Assembly (NCBI RefSeq): GCF_004803695.1
Contig: NZ_CP039393.1
Location: forward strand, 2,604,001-2,668,000
Length of the DNA: 64,000 nt
DNA from: Muribaculum gordoncarteri
Lineage (GTDB): Bacteria; Bacteroidota; Bacteroidia; Bacteroidales; Muribaculaceae
Direction of reading: 5' to 3'
The position numbers and the translations under genes were made by a program. Positions 25,795 to 33,263 of the stretch are shown here, one piece after another; position 1 is the first letter of the stretch, and each line of letters begins with the position of its first letter. Under the pieces are notes generated by a model, which worked only from the letters and a program-made list of their open reading frames with translations, was not told where the DNA came from and did no database searches.

Positions 25795-28614
25795 TTGAGA
25801 AATTCTCACCTATATATAATAATATCGGTGCTATTATGCGCAATAAGCGCCGGAGCCGCATCACTTCCCCGACGAGCCAACAGTGACCCGTTGCCCTCGC
25901 ATGTCGACTCCACTGCCGCAGCTGTCGACTCGTCATCGGTCGATACAATCCCCGATTCCTACGACCCGTTGCGCCGCACCCTCATCAGCGAGGCTGTCCC
26001 CGAATCGGTGGCGGCTTCCTCACTCCCCGTGTTCCATCCCAAGGAGGAAACCAAATCACGCATCCAGCGCCAGAAGGTCGACCTTGACAACGTTGTAACC
26101 TTCTCGGCCAAAGACTCATTGGTGCTTGTAGGCAAAAACAGCGCGTTCATGTATGGCGACAGCGAAGTAAAGTATGGCGACATGGAGCTGCAGGGCGCTG
26201 AAATAAAAATGGACATGGCCACCAACGTAGTCTATGCCGTAGGTCGTCCCGACTCGGTAGGCGAATTGCAGGGTTCGCCTGTATTCTCCGACAAGAGCGG
26301 TGAATACGAGTCTAAGACAATGAGCTACAACTTCAAGACAAAACGAGGTATGATAACCGATGTCGTCACCGAGCAGGGCGAAGGTTATCTGACCGGAGGT
26401 CGCACCAAGATGATGGAAAGCGGCGAATATTACCTTGCCGACGGAAAATACTCTACCTGCGACGATCACGACCATCCCCACTTCTACTTTCAGTTGACCA
26501 AAGCCAAGGTCATCCCCAAAAAGAATGTGGTCACCGGACCCGCCTACATGGTGCTTGCAGGACTTCCGCTCCCGCTTGCCGTACCGTTTGGATACTTCCC
26601 CTTCTCCGAGAAGTACTCTTCAGGTATAATATTCCCTTCGTTCGGCGATGACTACAACCGAGGATTCTATCTGAGCAACGGAGGCTACTACTTTGCAATA
26701 AACGACAACATCGACCTCGCGCTCACAGGCGAGATATACACCAAAGGCTCATGGGGTATAAACGCACAGTCGGCCTACGTGAAACGATACAAGTATTCGG
26801 GTAGCTTCCATTTGAGCTACATCAACACGATTTTCGGCGAAAAGGGCAATCCCGACTACTCTAAGCAGACCAACTTCCAGATTCTCTGGAACCACTCGCA
26901 GGATTCAAAGGCCAATCCCAACATGACCCTCTCGGCAAGCGTAAACTTCTCGACGAGCGGCTACACGCGCAACGACCTCAACAGCTACTACAGCAACTCG
27001 TTCACCGAGAATACCAAGAGTTCGACCATCAACATGACCTATCGAATCCCCAACTCGAAATGGTCGTTCTCAACAACTGCCAACATCGCGCAGCGTACCC
27101 AGGACTCTACACTTGCAGTGTCATTCCCCAACCTCACGGTGTCGCTGTCGCAGGTCTACCCCTTCAAGCGCAAACGCGCCGTAGGTGCCGAACGCTGGTA
27201 TGAGAAAATCAAGCTCTCCTACTCCGGTCAGTTCCAGAACTCACTGACAGCCAAGCAGGACCAGTTCTTCAAGAAGAGCCTCATAAAGGATTGGCGCAAC
27301 GGTATGCGTCACTCAATCCCCATCTCGGCGACATTCAACCTGTTCAAATATATCAACCTCACTCCGCAAATATCGCTGAACGACCGAATGTACACCTCAA
27401 AGGTGCGCCGAAGCTGGGACCCCAATGCCTCAGCCGAAGTGTGCGACACCACCTACAGCCTCTATAACGTGTGGGATTTCAATGCGTCAGTGTCGCTCGA
27501 CACCAAAATCTACGGCTTCTTCCAGCCTATGAAATTCCTCGGCGACAAAGTGAAAATGATACGCCACGTATTGACTCCGACAATATCGTTCTCGGGCGCT
27601 CCCGACTTCTCGTCGCCGTTCTTCGGTTACTACGGCAACTACTCCTATCAGGACTCCAAGGGTGAAACCGTCACCAAGAAGTACTCGCTCTTCCCCAATG
27701 CCCTTTACGGCGTGCCGGGGCAGGGACGGCAGGGAGTAGTGAGTGTTTCGCTCGCCAACAATGTCGAGATGAAGGTTAAGAGCGACAACGACAGTATAGG
27801 CGAAAAGAAAATATCGTTGATCGAGAACTTCAGCGTGTCACAAAGCTACAACTTCGCAGCAGACTCAATGAACTGGAGCAATATACAGACCTCATTGCTG
27901 CTGCGACTCGTCAAAAACTTCAACCTGAGCCTCTCGGCTACATGGGATGTCTACACCTATCAGCTCAACTCGGCAGGAAATCCAGTGCGCGTAAACGTGC
28001 CTCGATGGAAAGCCGGAAAGGGACTCGGACGACTCTCCAGCACCGGAACATCATTCTCCTACACCTTCAACAACAACACCTTCAAGCGCAAGGATAAAAA
28101 GGACGACAAGAAGAAATCGGGCAGCGTCGACGACGAGCCCGACAACTCCCACGAGCTTGAGAACACCTCGGGCGACTTCCGCAACAACCGCACCGGCAAC
28201 AGCGAAACTGCCGACAGCGGTCTGCAGCTTAACGACGACGGCTACATGGCCTGGGAGGTTCCGTGGAGTCTTACATTCAACTATTCGGTCAACTACGGCT
28301 ACGGAGCGTTCAACAAAAAGAAGATGGAGTATGACGGTAAGATAACCCAGAACCTCAGCTTCTCAGGCAACATACAGCCCACCAAAAACTGGAACTTCGG
28401 ATTCAGCGCAAGCTATAACTTCGACACCCACAAGATAGCTTACATGAACTGCAACATATCACGTGACCTCCACTGCTTCACGATGACTGCGAGCTTCATA
28501 CCCGTAGGCCCCTACAAGAGCTACAATTTCCACATCGCCGTGAAGTCGTCGCTCCTGCAGGACTTGAAGTACGACAAGCGCTCGTCGATGACCAACGGTG
28601 TGACATGGTATTAA
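25795..28614 (+). CDS. lptD: LPS-assembly protein LptD-like outer-membrane protein
   Basis: A 939-aa protein beginning at a TTG codon, chosen because it opens directly onto a signal peptide (SHLYIIISVLLCAISAGAA) and no ATG precedes the mature part. Residues about 90-250 form the OstA/LptA-like beta-taco domain (GDSEVKYGDMELQGAEIKMD). The characteristic PLAVPFGYFPFSEKYSSGIIFPSFG segment follows, then a long outer-membrane barrel rich in alternating aromatic strands. LptD with LptE inserts LPS in the outer leaflet. A Lys/Asp-rich insert (KRKDKKDDKKK, near 765) lies in a likely loop. Divergent from tamB, making this an envelope-building locus. Confidence 0.88.
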   Translation: MRNSHLYIIISVLLCAISAGAASLPRRANSDPLPSHVDSTAAAVDSSSVDTIPDSYDPLRRTLISEAVPESVAASSLPVFHPKEETKSRIQRQKVDLDNVVTFSAKDSLVLVGKNSAFMYGDSEVKYGDMELQGAEIKMDMATNVVYAVGRPDSVGELQGSPVFSDKSGEYESKTMSYNFKTKRGMITDVVTEQGEGYLTGGRTKMMESGEYYLADGKYSTCDDHDHPHFYFQLTKAKVIPKKNVVTGPAYMVLAGLPLPLAVPFGYFPFSEKYSSGIIFPSFGDDYNRGFYLSNGGYYFAINDNIDLALTGEIYTKGSWGINAQSAYVKRYKYSGSFHLSYINTIFGEKGNPDYSKQTNFQILWNHSQDSKANPNMTLSASVNFSTSGYTRNDLNSYYSNSFTENTKSSTINMTYRIPNSKWSFSTTANIAQRTQDSTLAVSFPNLTVSLSQVYPFKRKRAVGAERWYEKIKLSYSGQFQNSLTAKQDQFFKKSLIKDWRNGMRHSIPISATFNLFKYINLTPQISLNDRMYTSKVRRSWDPNASAEVCDTTYSLYNVWDFNASVSLDTKIYGFFQPMKFLGDKVKMIRHVLTPTISFSGAPDFSSPFFGYYGNYSYQDSKGETVTKKYSLFPNALYGVPGQGRQGVVSVSLANNVEMKVKSDNDSIGEKKISLIENFSVSQSYNFAADSMNWSNIQTSLLLRLVKNFNLSLSATWDVYTYQLNSAGNPVRVNVPRWKAGKGLGRLSSTGTSFSYTFNNNTFKRKDKKDDKKKSGSVDDEPDNSHELENTSGDFRNNRTGNSETADSGLQLNDDGYMAWEVPWSLTFNYSVNYGYGAFNKKKMEYDGKITQNLSFSGNIQPTKNWNFGFSASYNFDTHKIAYMNCNISRDLHCFTMTASFIPVGPYKSYNFHIAVKSSLLQDLKYDKRSSMTNGVTWY

Positions 28615-28688: not shown

Positions 28689-28696
28689 TACTTTTG
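28689..28696 (+). promoter_or_regulatory. -7 box of the his operon leader
   Basis: TACTTTTG fits TAnnTTTG exactly. Transcription should start near 28703, about 20 nt before the leader peptide ATG. Confidence 0.6.
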
Positions 28697-28721
28697 TCGC
28701 ATAAACAACAACAGAAATAAT

Positions 28722-28781
28722 ATGTTGACAATTTTAAGCTCACGATATCATCACCATCATCATCTCCGTTACTCGCAGTGA
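28722..28781 (+). CDS. his operon leader peptide with five consecutive His codons
   Basis: A 19-residue frame, ATG to TGA, reading M-L-T-I-L-S-S-R-Y-H-H-H-H-H-L-R-Y-S-Q. Five His codons in a row (CAT CAC CAT CAT CAT) directly upstream of hisGDCB are the classic design of a his attenuator leader, where shortage of charged tRNA-His stalls the ribosome. It lies 26 nt after a good -7 box and 57 nt before the attenuator stem. Too short for routine gene finders, but position and composition make it convincing. Confidence 0.85.
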   Translation: MLTILSSRYHHHHHLRYSQ

Positions 28782-28837
28782 GGGAGCAATGAGGCGTGCA
28801 TGATGACTGACGCTTACGACAAGTCAATAAATGTATA

Positions 28838-28868
28838 GAGCCGGCTTCCCGTCACAGGAGGCCGGCTC
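28838..28868 (+). terminator. his attenuator hairpin
   Basis: A 12-bp stem GAGCCGGCTTCC / GGAGGCCGGCTC (one G-T pair) around the loop CGTCACA, ending 37 nt before hisG. The following bases (AATTATTAT) give only a weak U tract. GGGA at 28782-28785, right after the leader stop, can pair with TCCC at 28847-28850, which overlaps the stem's left arm and loop and could act as antiterminator. Confidence 0.7.
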
Positions 28869-28905
28869 AATTATTATCGTGAAATCTATAAAAACTATAC
28901 CCGAT

Positions 28906-29772
28906 ATGGACAACAAACTACGCATCGCCGTCCAGTCGAAAGGACGACTCTATGAGGAAACAATGGAGCTGCTTGCCGAGGCAGGCATCAAGCTCACGGC
29001 AGTGAAGCGCACACTGCTTGTTCCGTCACGCAACTTCCCGGTGGAACTGCTGTTTTTGCGCGATGACGACATTCCCGATTCCGTTGCCAACGGCACCGCC
29101 GACCTCGGCATCGTGGGACTGAACGAAGTTCTTGAAAAAGAAAAGGATGTCGAGGTGGTAAAGGAGCTCGGCTTCAGCAAGTGCCACCTGTCGCTCGCCA
29201 TCCCCAAGCGTGAGGACTACACCGGCTTGTCATGGTTCAACAATCGCAAGATTGCGACATCCTATCCCGTCATATTGTCACACTTCCTTGAGCGTAACGG
29301 CATCCGAGCCGACATTCACGTGATCACCGGCTCGGTGGAGATCGCTCCGGGCATAGGACTGGCCGACGCTATCTTCGACATCGTTTCATCGGGCTCGACA
29401 CTCATCAGCAACAATCTCGTCGAGGTCGAGCGTATAGTCGAGTCACAGGCCGTGCTCATCAGTCCCCGTCGCCGACACCTGTCGGAATCAAAGCGTGAGG
29501 TGCTCGACGAGCTGTTGTTCCGCTTCGATGCCGTTAAAGCAGCCGACGGGAAGAAATACATTCTCATGAATGTTCCCCGCAACAAGCTCGACGATGTGCT
29601 CATGGTGCTTCCCGGAATAAAGAGCCCAACAATATTGCCGCTGGCCAACAGCGACTGGTGTTCGGTTCACTCCGTTCTTGAAGAGAAAAAGCTGTGGGAA
29701 ATAATAGGAAAACTCAAAAATGCCGGAGCCGAGGGAATACTCGCTCTCGACATTGAAAAAATGATACTTTGA
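28906..29772 (+). CDS. hisG: ATP phosphoribosyltransferase (long form, HisG)
   Basis: A 288-aa enzyme for the first step of histidine synthesis, ATP plus PRPP. It has the N-terminal bilobal domain (AVQSKGRLYEETMELL, ADLGIVGLNEV), the PRPP loop DAIFDIVSSGSTLISNNL and a C-terminal regulatory domain (from about residue 215) that binds histidine for feedback inhibition, so no HisZ partner is needed. The ATG at 28906 is chosen over one at 28831 because the longer reading runs through the attenuator stem. First structural gene of hisGDCB. Confidence 0.96.
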   Translation: MDNKLRIAVQSKGRLYEETMELLAEAGIKLTAVKRTLLVPSRNFPVELLFLRDDDIPDSVANGTADLGIVGLNEVLEKEKDVEVVKELGFSKCHLSLAIPKREDYTGLSWFNNRKIATSYPVILSHFLERNGIRADIHVITGSVEIAPGIGLADAIFDIVSSGSTLISNNLVEVERIVESQAVLISPRRRHLSESKREVLDELLFRFDAVKAADGKKYILMNVPRNKLDDVLMVLPGIKSPTILPLANSDWCSVHSVLEEKKLWEIIGKLKNAGAEGILALDIEKMIL

Positions 29773-29779
29773 CCTCAAT

Positions 29780-31081
29780 ATGGAAATAATCAGATATCCG
29801 TCGCGCGACAGCCGAAACGCACTGCTGCAACGACCGCTTGCCGACAAGGCGCGTGAAGTCACCGATACCGTGACATCGATAATGGACGATGTGAAGCGTA
29901 ACGGCGACGAAGCGCTGATGCGTTACGAAATGAAGTTCACGGGCGCTCAACTCGACCGTCTTGAAGTGACGCCCGAGGAGATTGACGAAGCCGAGAGCCT
30001 CGTGAGCGACGAGCTGCGTGACGCAATAGCAATGGCGAGGGAAAACATCGCGGCGTTTCACCGCGCACAGGTGATGTCACAACCCGTAAAGGTGACGACA
30101 CAGCCGGGCGTGACATGCGAGCAGCGTGCTGTGCCCATTGACCGCGTGGGTCTTTACATCCCCGGAGGCAACTCACCGCTATTCTCGACCGTCCTGATGC
30201 TTGCCGTCCCGGCACGCATAGCCGGATGCCGTGACATAATCCTCTGTACTCCCGCCGGGAAGGACGGGAAAGTACATCCGGCCATACTCTATGCGGCAAA
30301 AGCAGCCGGAGTCAGCCGAATATACAAGACAGGAGGAGCGCAGGCCATAGCGGCGATGACATTCGGCACCGAGAGCATCCCCAAAGTCTACAAGATATTC
30401 GGTCCGGGCAACCGTTACGTTATGGAGGCCAAACAGCAGGCGACAATGCACGGCGTTGCCATCGACATGCCGGCTGGGCCGTCGGAGGTTCTGGTAATAG
30501 CCGACGACGAAGCCAATCCCGAATTTGTGGCGGCCGACTTCCTCTCGCAGGCCGAGCACGGCCCCGACAGCCAGTCGATTCTTCTCACCACGTCACTCCG
30601 ACTTACTGACCGGTTGCCCGAAGTGATCGAGCGATTGCTGTCGACACTACCGCGCCGTGACATGATGAACCGCTCGCTTGAACACAGCCGCATCATATTG
30701 CTCGGCGACATGGATGAAGTGATGGAGTTCAGCAACGACTATGCACCCGAACACCTCATCATAAATCATCGTGACGCACGCTCGCTTTGCAACCGCGTCA
30801 CCAATGCCGGTTCGGTGTTCATAGGCCCCTACTCTCCCGAAAGCGCAGGCGACTATGCGTCGGGCACCAACCACACCCTGCCCACATCGGGCTATGCACG
30901 CAGCTACAGCGGAGTCAACATCGACAGCTTCACAAAGAAGATTACATTCCAGGAACTGACACCTGAAGGCATCAAGTCGATTGGTCACGCGGTAGAAACG
31001 ATGTCCGAGAATGAAGATCTCATGGCTCACAAACTCGCCGTGACGCTGCGACTTAACTCAATTGAAAACAACGCTAAATAA
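29780..31081 (+). CDS. hisD: Histidinol dehydrogenase
   Basis: A 433-aa zinc enzyme that oxidises histidinol to histidine in two NAD-dependent steps. Family marks are the YIPGG start of the Rossmann-like part, PKVYKIFGPGNRYVMEAKQQ, the signature region SEVLVIADDEANPEFVAADFLSQAEHG, and the C-terminal PTSGYARSYSGVNIDSFTKK. Full length. It follows hisG by 7 bp. Confidence 0.97.
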   Translation: MEIIRYPSRDSRNALLQRPLADKAREVTDTVTSIMDDVKRNGDEALMRYEMKFTGAQLDRLEVTPEEIDEAESLVSDELRDAIAMARENIAAFHRAQVMSQPVKVTTQPGVTCEQRAVPIDRVGLYIPGGNSPLFSTVLMLAVPARIAGCRDIILCTPAGKDGKVHPAILYAAKAAGVSRIYKTGGAQAIAAMTFGTESIPKVYKIFGPGNRYVMEAKQQATMHGVAIDMPAGPSEVLVIADDEANPEFVAADFLSQAEHGPDSQSILLTTSLRLTDRLPEVIERLLSTLPRRDMMNRSLEHSRIILLGDMDEVMEFSNDYAPEHLIINHRDARSLCNRVTNAGSVFIGPYSPESAGDYASGTNHTLPTSGYARSYSGVNIDSFTKKITFQELTPEGIKSIGHAVETMSENEDLMAHKLAVTLRLNSIENNAK

Positions 31082-31087
31082 CGCAAC

Positions 31088-32125
31088 ATGACATTAGACA
31101 GCCTCGTGCGCCCCAACATACTGCGACTCACGCCCTATACATGCGCCCGCAACGAATATACCGGCGAAGCTCTCGCATGGCTCGATGCCAACGAGAACAG
31201 CCGCATCGACGGCCTTAACCGCTACCCCGACCCCCTACAACTGGAGGTGAAACGCCGCCTCGCTGAAATTCGCGGAGTTACGCCCGACCGCATATTCCTC
31301 GGAGTGGGAAGCGATGAGTGCATCGACATAACCTATCGCGTATTCTGCCGTCCCGGCATCGACAATGTAGTCGCCATCGACCCCACCTACGGAATGTATC
31401 GTGTGTGCGCCGACATAAACGATGTAGAGTATCGCACGGCAAGCCTCAACGACGACTTCACGGTTAATGAGGAGAACCTGTTCAACCTCGTCGATGAAAA
31501 CACCAAAGTGCTGTGGATGTGCTCGCCCAACAACCCCACAGGCAACGCGCTCCCCATCGACGACATGCTGCGCATAGCCCGTCGGTTCCAAGGCATAACG
31601 GTGATTGATGAAGCCTATATCGACTTCTCGGACAAAGGATCGATGGTTCAGTATCTCGACACGTTGCCGCGACTGATAGTCATGCAGACATTCTCCAAAG
31701 CCTGGGCCTCGGCTGCGATGAGGCTCGGCATAGCATACGCGTCACCTGAGATAATCGACATATTCAACAAGGTGAAATATCCCTACAACATCAACATCCT
31801 CACCCAACGCGAGGCGCTGAATGTCCTTGACCGAGCCGACAAGGTTGCCGCCGTGGCCAAGGAGCTGGTCGAGGCCCGTGACAGGCTTGCATCGCAGCTT
31901 GAATCCCTGTCGGCGGTAAAGCGGGTATATGCCTCCGACGCCAACTTCCTGCTCGTGAAAGTAGATGATGCCGATGCCCTATACGCTTGGCTGCGCGATG
32001 CAGGCGTCATAGTGCGCAACCGCTGCCGTGTACACCTTTGTGCCGGATGCCTCAGGATAACGGTAGGCAGCGACAACGAAAACCGATTGTTAATTGAAAA
32101 AATAGAGGAATATGACCGACGCTGA
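31088..32125 (+). CDS. hisC: Histidinol-phosphate aminotransferase
   Basis: A 345-aa class I/II PLP enzyme that converts imidazole acetol phosphate to histidinol phosphate with glutamate. It has LDANENSR near the N terminus, SPNNPTGN (about 146-153), IDEAYIDF with the PLP-contacting Asp, and TFSKAWASA with PLP lysine Lys204. It starts 6 bp after hisD and overlaps hisB by 14 bp. Confidence 0.96.
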
Positions 32126-33263
32126 CACCCAACGACCGCGAGTACTCTTTATCGACCGTGACGGCACACTCATAGTGGAGCCTCCAGTGGATTTTCAAGT
32201 CGACTCACTTGAAAAACTCGAATTAATGCCCGGCGCACTGCGTGCAATGCACTTCATTGCGTCACGACTGCCTTTTGAGCTTGTCATGGTCACCAACCAG
32301 GACGGACTCGGCACCGAACTCTTTCCCGAGGATACCTTCTGGCCGGCCCACAACAAGATGCTGAAAGCCTTTGCCAACGAAGGCGTGACATTTGACGACA
32401 TAATCATAGACCGCACCCTGCCCGAAGATAACGCGCCGACACGCAAACCCGGCACGGCATTGCTCGGTAAATATATGTCGGGCGATTACGATTTGTCAGG
32501 TTCGCGGGTTATAGGCGACAGGCTGACCGATGTCATGCTTGCCCGCAACCTCGGGTGCAAGGCCATACTCTTGCGTGAGCCAACTCCCGAATTGATGAAG
32601 GAGATTGCCGATGCCGGACTAAGTGACGCGGTGGAACGCGTAACGCCGTCATGGGACGATGTGACGGTCACGCTTCAAGGAGGCACGCGCCGCGCATCGG
32701 TAAGCCGCGTCACTTCCGAAACCAAAATAGAGATAACCGTCGACCTCGACGGAACCGGAAAGGGCAACATAACAACCGGAATAGGCTTCTTCGACCACAT
32801 GCTCGACCAGATAGCACGACACTCAGGCATCGATCTCGACATAACGGTGGAAGGTGACCTCCATGTCGACGAACATCACACCGTCGAAGACACCGCGATA
32901 GCTCTCGGCGAAGCGTTACGCAAGGCATTGGGCGACAAGCGCGGTATCGAGCGTTACGGATTCGTGCTGCCGATGGACGACTGCCTCTGTACGGTTGCCG
33001 TTGACTTCGGAGGGCGACCATGGCTGGTGTGGGATGCTCAATTCAAGCGCGAGCGCATAGGCGACATGCCCACCGAAATGTTCATGCACTTTTTCAAGTC
33101 GCTGAGCGACAACGCGCTGATGAATCTATTCATACGCGCAGAGGGTATCAACGAACATCACAAAATCGAAGGCATATTCAAGGGGCTGGCAAGAGCTTTG
33201 CGTCAGGCGATAAAGCGTGACCCGTTACACTTCACGTTGCCGTCGACCAAAGGCACACTGTGA
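32112..33263 (+). CDS. hisB: Bifunctional histidinol-phosphatase / imidazoleglycerol-phosphate dehydratase
   Basis: A 383-aa fusion. Residues 1-165 are a HAD-type histidinol-phosphate phosphatase with DRDGT (Asp15, Asp17) and KPGT. Residues about 190-383 are IGP dehydratase with [30 protein letters not shown] and the second ADEHH-like metal motif [20 protein letters not shown]. The fused form is known from Proteobacteria and Bacteroidetes. HisA, HisF, HisH and HisI are not in the window, so only part of the pathway is encoded here. The stop is 2 bp from a convergent gene. Confidence 0.96.

Follow-up and report, generated by a model that had tools for sequence, protein, structure and literature searches.

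The hisGDCB operon of Muribaculum gordoncarteri raises the question whether its transcription is set by the supply of histidine, sensed by a ribosome that translates a short leader ahead of the first gene. For the window considered here, i.e., the whole stretch of 64,000 nucleotides that was analysed (contig NZ_CP039393.1 of assembly GCF_004803695.1, positions 2,604,001 to 2,668,000 of the forward strand), a sequence-only reading had claimed that a promoter, a 19-residue frame with five His codons in a row and a hairpin follow each other in the order needed for attenuation, and this order was recovered base for base. All features lie on the + strand. An lptD-like gene (Pfam LptD_2) ends at 28614 and is followed by the element TACTTTTG (28689-28696) of the type TAnnTTTG, which we take to be the promoter element of the Bacteroidota -7 type. 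The leader peptide gene of 19 codons (MLTILSSRYHHHHHLRYSQ; 28722-28781) runs from the ATG at 28722 to the TGA stop at 28779-28781 and contains the five consecutive His codons CAT CAC CAT CAT CAT (28749-28763). Downstream of it, a hairpin with a stem of 12 bp and a loop of 7 nt (28838-28868), followed by the tail AATTATTATC, precedes the genes, whose identity as hisG, hisD, hisC and hisB was borne out by Pfam: hisG, the first gene of the operon (28906-29772; HisG, HisG_C), hisD (29780-31081; Histidinol_dh), hisC (31088-32125; Aminotran_1_2) and hisB (32112-33263; IGPD and Hydrolase_like, the IGPD part being preceded by a HAD-like stretch). Taken from 28906, the hisG protein finds a match in 12 genomes of the same genus, and in these the alignment begins at its residue 1. 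The longest open reading frame of hisG begins at an in-frame ATG at 28831, just 5' of the hairpin, so that automatic calling could place the gene start within the attenuator; the relatives favour 28906.

In the window, codons for the operon's own amino acid thus stand in a row within a leader frame, and the comparison of his leaders that had been proposed as a check shows that frames with His runs are also present in relatives. Our Bacteroidales set consisted of 110 hisG loci, i.e., 80 named loci (the best 80 of 549 confirmed) and 30 more, one of them the window itself (the best 30 from a search in which 41 out of 61 genomes gave matches), and contained 103 distinct upstream regions. A leader was called where an ATG frame of 8-45 codons held HHH or four His in eight and its stop lay 50-260 nt 5' of hisG. 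This rule picked out 70 of the 103 upstream regions, of which 69, the window included, were kept; the call at L032 was excluded by eye as coding DNA. The same rule gave 2 calls in 2060 dinucleotide shuffles and none in 103 reverse complements. TAnnTTTG recurs within 75 nt upstream of the leader ATG (66 out of 69 leader loci vs. 449 out of 6900 shuffles), and a simple pattern for a Shine-Dalgarno-like motif matched at 4 of the 69 leader starts. The leader RNA of the window has a folding energy 5.5 s.d. below that of its shuffles.

The leader also reaches beyond the order. Of the 296 genomes of Bacteroidota searched, 252 possess hisG, and a further sample of 69 upstream regions (29 new loci returned by the search and 40 picked from its list) yielded 39 leader calls, some of them doubtful either because the hairpin was not called (L160, L161, L162, and L175) or as irregular (L176 and L179). 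These calls were distributed as 25 out of 42 from the same class, 14 out of 25 from the same phylum and 0 out of 2 from the same order, and the controls gave 1 call in 1380 single-base shuffles and none in 69 reverse complements. A hairpin with at least 5 T among 8 bases was found in 34 of the 39. Three loci of the same class (L116, L119, and L121) have frames that end in HHFHHSS, with the stop two codons past the His codons, and poor hairpins; their calls are doubtful, and they perhaps represent another design. Within Bacteroidales, a hairpin 3' of the leader was called in all 69 leader loci, and at each of them it scored above all ten shuffles of the locus, the terminator being chosen by a shuffle-controlled score that was revised once to give extra weight to T after the stem. 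Earlier hairpin searches, the first by stem energy alone, had misplaced stems by extending them into the U tract or the upstream sequence, and were therefore replaced by this score.

An attenuator also needs an alternative to the terminator. It had been claimed that GGGA, directly after the leader stop, can pair with TCCC in the hairpin, and both motifs are indeed read directly at 28782-28785 and 28847-28850. They form the core of the predicted helix, but the helix is longer than that: segment 2, GTGAGGGAGC (28778-28787), which is the 5' strand of the antiterminator and has supported counterparts in relatives, pairs with segment 3, GCTTCCCGTCAC (28844-28855), which comprises the 5' arm and loop of the terminator and serves as the 3' strand of the antiterminator. 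GGGA and TCCC alone contribute -4.4 kcal/mol, against -11.6 kcal/mol for GTGAGGGAGC with GGCTTCCCGTCAC; the RNAduplex optimum for the window divides the helix differently from the version with GTGAGGGAGC and GCTTCCCGTCAC. Across the loci, up to 42 nt past the last His codon was paired with the 5' arm and loop of the locus's own terminator. For the 69 Bacteroidales loci, own pairs reached a mean of -15.25 kcal/mol, compared to -12.65 when swapped between loci, -10.0 for shuffled leader segments and -9.0 for pairing to the loop and 3' arm, and none of 20000 permutations equalled the own-pair sum, with the caveat that shuffles and swaps leave some effects of relatedness. The 34 loci from the further phylum sample gave -13.35 (own) vs. 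-8.46 kcal/mol (swapped), again unmatched by any of 20000 permutations, and the outcome was the same when only the 13 same-phylum loci were taken (-14.24 vs. -10.38 kcal/mol). The covariation that had been suggested as a check is, therefore, found in both locus sets: segments 2 and 3 change together. The helix is formed by CGGTGGGC with GCTTACCG in Bacteroides fragilis (L021), by AGAGGTGAGC with GCTTACCTCT in L016 and by ATGGCGG with CCGCCAT in L098, and the pairing sequences also vary among the phylum loci (e.g., ACTCAAGCG with CGTTTGAGT in L145).

The position of this helix is informative as well. In the Bacteroidales leader loci, the distance from the last His codon to the start of the antiterminator strand averages 14.2 nt (s.d. 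4.1), and that from the stop -6.0 nt (s.d. 10.5); in 50 runs with the leader segments shuffled, the s.d. of the former distance averaged 9.6 and never fell below 8.2. Since the spread is smaller from the last His codon than from the stop, the spacing tracks the His codons more, as stalling requires. The contrast was weaker (s.d. 6.5 vs. 9.5) in the 21 loci that belong to the same class but to other orders. We also observed that the C-terminal ends PNE and PDE recur in leaders of Bacteroides (L018, L022, L025, L070, and others); what keeps them may be RNA pairing with segment 2 (e.g., CCTGACGA with TCGGTGGG) rather than the peptide.

The effect of the ribosome was simulated by folding the transcript as far as the hairpin loop while the RNA under the ribosome was masked; the footprint was set to end 13 nt from the first base of the codon in the A site. 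In the window, GTGAGGGAGC pairs with GCTTCCCGTCAC when the A site is occupied by His codon 3 or 5; a ribosome whose A site has reached the stop codon covers GTGAGGGAGC, and the antiterminator is absent. This agrees with the claim that a ribosome that finishes the leader covers GGGA. The companion claim, that a stall at the His codons leaves GGGA free, holds for His codons 3 and 5 but not for His codon 1, where a 1:2 hairpin of CTCCGTTACT with AGTGAGGGAG forms and the antiterminator does not. The mean probability that the 5' arm and loop of the terminator are paired upstream was 0.64 for stalled ribosomes vs. 0.23 at the stop over 69 loci (0.62 vs. 0.16 for the window), and it was higher for the His stalls than for the stop in 68 out of 69 loci, the exception being L105. 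In controls with shuffled spacers the means were 0.46 and 0.39, and the stalled value was the higher one in 212 out of 345, so the contrast does not merely reflect that less RNA is free when the ribosome is at the stop. Equilibrium folding of the finished RNA gave the terminator of the window a probability of 0.99 irrespective of stalling, and over the loci a mean of 0.79 for stalled ribosomes and 0.98 at the stop. Because the terminator is favoured at equilibrium even when the ribosome is stalled, the switch would be decided kinetically, during transcription. An antiterminator that excludes the terminator, is freed by the stall and is covered at the stop was accordingly recovered only by folding during transcription.

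Segment 1, CTCCGTTACT (28764-28773), can pair in ribosome-free RNA with 28777-28786 (-10.3 kcal/mol). Across 67 loci this putative 1:2 pairing, for which the segment 2 of the window was set further downstream than 28778-28787, is modestly supported by the comparison of own (-5.28 kcal/mol), shuffled (-3.75) and swapped (-4.27) segments, with 0 out of 20000 permutations, and just 14 of the 67 loci fall within the best tenth of their own shuffles.

We consider it highly probable that the supply of histidine controls transcription of hisGDCB here through a ribosome-mediated attenuator. Sequence comparison establishes the parts, their conservation, the distance between the His codons and the antiterminator, and the way in which segments 2 and 3 change together. 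The events inferred from them, i.e., termination itself, a response to His-tRNA, a contribution of segment 1 and a ribosome coupled to the polymerase, would take the following course. Transcription would begin just past TACTTTTG, and a ribosome would start on the 19-codon leader. With ample His-tRNA it would arrive at the stop codon and cover segment 2, upon which segment 3 and the 3' arm would pair, the terminator would form and RNA polymerase would leave. When charged His-tRNA is scarce, the ribosome would stall in the His codons and cover segment 1, leaving segment 2 free to capture segment 3 as it emerges; the terminator would then come too late, and the polymerase would continue into hisG. 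On a leader without a ribosome, segments 1 and 2 would pair and the terminator would be free to form. The attenuation proposed in the sequence-only reading is, apart from small corrections, well supported.

The leader is not universal. By our rule, it is absent from 33 of the 103 distinct Bacteroidales upstream regions. Among 18 leaderless upstream regions inspected by eye, L019, L056, L079, and L102 resemble degenerate leaders followed by a hairpin, and 13 others showed no visible His leader, the leader being the only feature judged. L055 has a leader-like frame whose stop is too close to hisG for the rule, and eight further upstream regions inspected by eye (L084, L085, which equals L001, L088, L090, L091, L092, L094, and L099) contained no leader. 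In the six leaderless loci examined for gene order (L001, L084, L088, L090, L091, and L092), hisD comes after hisG. At L035, within ca. 70 nt before the hisG match, we noticed a promoter-like TATACTTTTG and immediately after it a hairpin of the leader type with a T run but without a leader frame, as though only the terminator had survived a deletion of the leader. Within the genus, 13 other genomes were searched, one of which had no hisG match; the leader is present in L082, L086, L089, L093, L095, and L097 and absent at hisG in the other 6 of the 12 (L084, L085, L088, L090, L091, and L092). One genome of the genus (G008; completeness 82, contamination 6) gave two hisG matches, on contigs C24 and C182. 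A hisG tree with 38 rows requires five changes of the leader label, at least three of which are forced by well supported branches. Ten forks of this tree are open, its root is a midpoint root and two of the rows labeled as leaderless (L019 and L102) resemble degenerate leaders by eye, so gains and losses are not separable with certainty; our own reading is that the leader is old and was lost several times. The genome of M. gordoncarteri has a second his cluster (L183, C1:1256000-1268000), with two PF00977 genes and a purU-like gene, hisH and hisI named by eye. A search of 7000 nt there for a His leader found nowhere three His codons in a row, and the two halves of the pathway may thus be controlled differently.

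This patchiness bears on the strongest rival explanation, i.e., that the attenuator of the window was inherited but is leaky or decaying, so that hisGDCB is mostly read through and histidine control is weak. The U tract between the leader and hisG had rightly been judged the poor part: the longest T run in the tail of the window is 2, which ties with L030 for the lowest of the 69 loci (median 6), and the same-genus locus L082 has AATTTTTTTT at the equivalent position. Moreover, the absence of the leader from half of the other same-genus genomes with hisG suggests that such control is dispensable in this group. The leader frame, the His run, the antiterminator and the 12-bp stem are, however, all intact, and T occupies 5 of the first 9 bases of AATTATTATC. 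We regard a leaky or decaying attenuator as unlikely, although the window copy may terminate weakly. The poor U tract, together with the position of the hairpin 37 nt upstream of the hisG start, could also indicate that the hairpin affects translation of hisG or the stability of the RNA and is not a terminator at all. However, at least 5 T among the 8 bases past the stem occur in 67 of the 69 leader loci, compared to 47 out of 690 shuffled stretches, and the hairpin of the window stops short of the hisG start codon, which makes this explanation still less probable. That the His run arose by chance and the hairpin is an ordinary terminator of the lptD-like gene, which does end upstream on the same strand, is only negligibly probable: the genome contains 59 matches to CAYCAYCAYCAY, overlapping ones included, so that a His run by itself means little and its position and neighbours count, but leader, hairpin and pairing recur before hisG of relatives, the shuffle counts given above argue against chance and the promoter motif sits between lptD and the leader, and both the chance run and the hairpin as a mere lptD terminator were rejected on these grounds. 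As far as sequence comparison can tell, the histidine attenuator is real and widely shared, and it is ordinary in its mechanism.

Its closest known counterpart is the His_leader family of Rfam (RF00514), with which it shares the run of His codons, competing hairpins, a terminator and hisG as the next gene. Positions 28748-28874 of the window align to the whole of the family model (1-126); however, the score of 24.5 bits (E 0.048) falls short of the gathering cutoff of 49, and at the gathering score there was no match in the window or in 20 chosen relatives. PMC9413887 treats RF00514 as the proteobacterial type and describes RNA attenuators of his operons in Firmicutes, with leader peptides that have three to five consecutive His codons; Proteobacteria are named there too, and Bacteroidetes or Bacteroidota are not mentioned in its main text. 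The Firmicutes attenuators likewise place terminator and antiterminator hairpins before his operons, but in another phylum (PMC9413887). Closer in phylogeny, attenuation by leader peptides has been inferred, from clues before operons for amino-acid biosynthesis, in Flavobacterium psychrophilum, also a member of the Bacteroidetes; the word histidine does not appear in the main text of that paper (PMC9723704). For Bacteroides thetaiotaomicron, a passage of PMC7366714 reports leader-like short frames in long 5' UTRs and leaves histidine unnamed. We did not find a his attenuator of Bacteroidota described in the open-access literature, although an earlier prediction is possible (Lopatovskaya et al., 2010 being one likely source). 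The mechanism is classic and already known; what is new, as far as our searches showed, is its occurrence before many his operons of Bacteroidota.

Bacteroidota are said to start translation differently from E. coli. We lean towards the view that the phylum inherited His attenuation from its common ancestor and that a ribosome close behind RNA polymerase still reads it, despite the lack of Shine-Dalgarno-like leader starts. If this is true, the near-fixed spacing of 14 nt between the His codons and the antiterminator would be evidence for coupling of transcription and translation in this phylum, at least over leaders. The leader also offers a reporter with which to ask whether ribosome and polymerase are coupled in Bacteroidota, and close relatives that do and do not carry it provide a natural comparison. 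A textbook form of control, with base pairs that change together, would be extended to a phylum that is abundant in the gut and whose his leader is scored below cutoff by the existing RNA family model.
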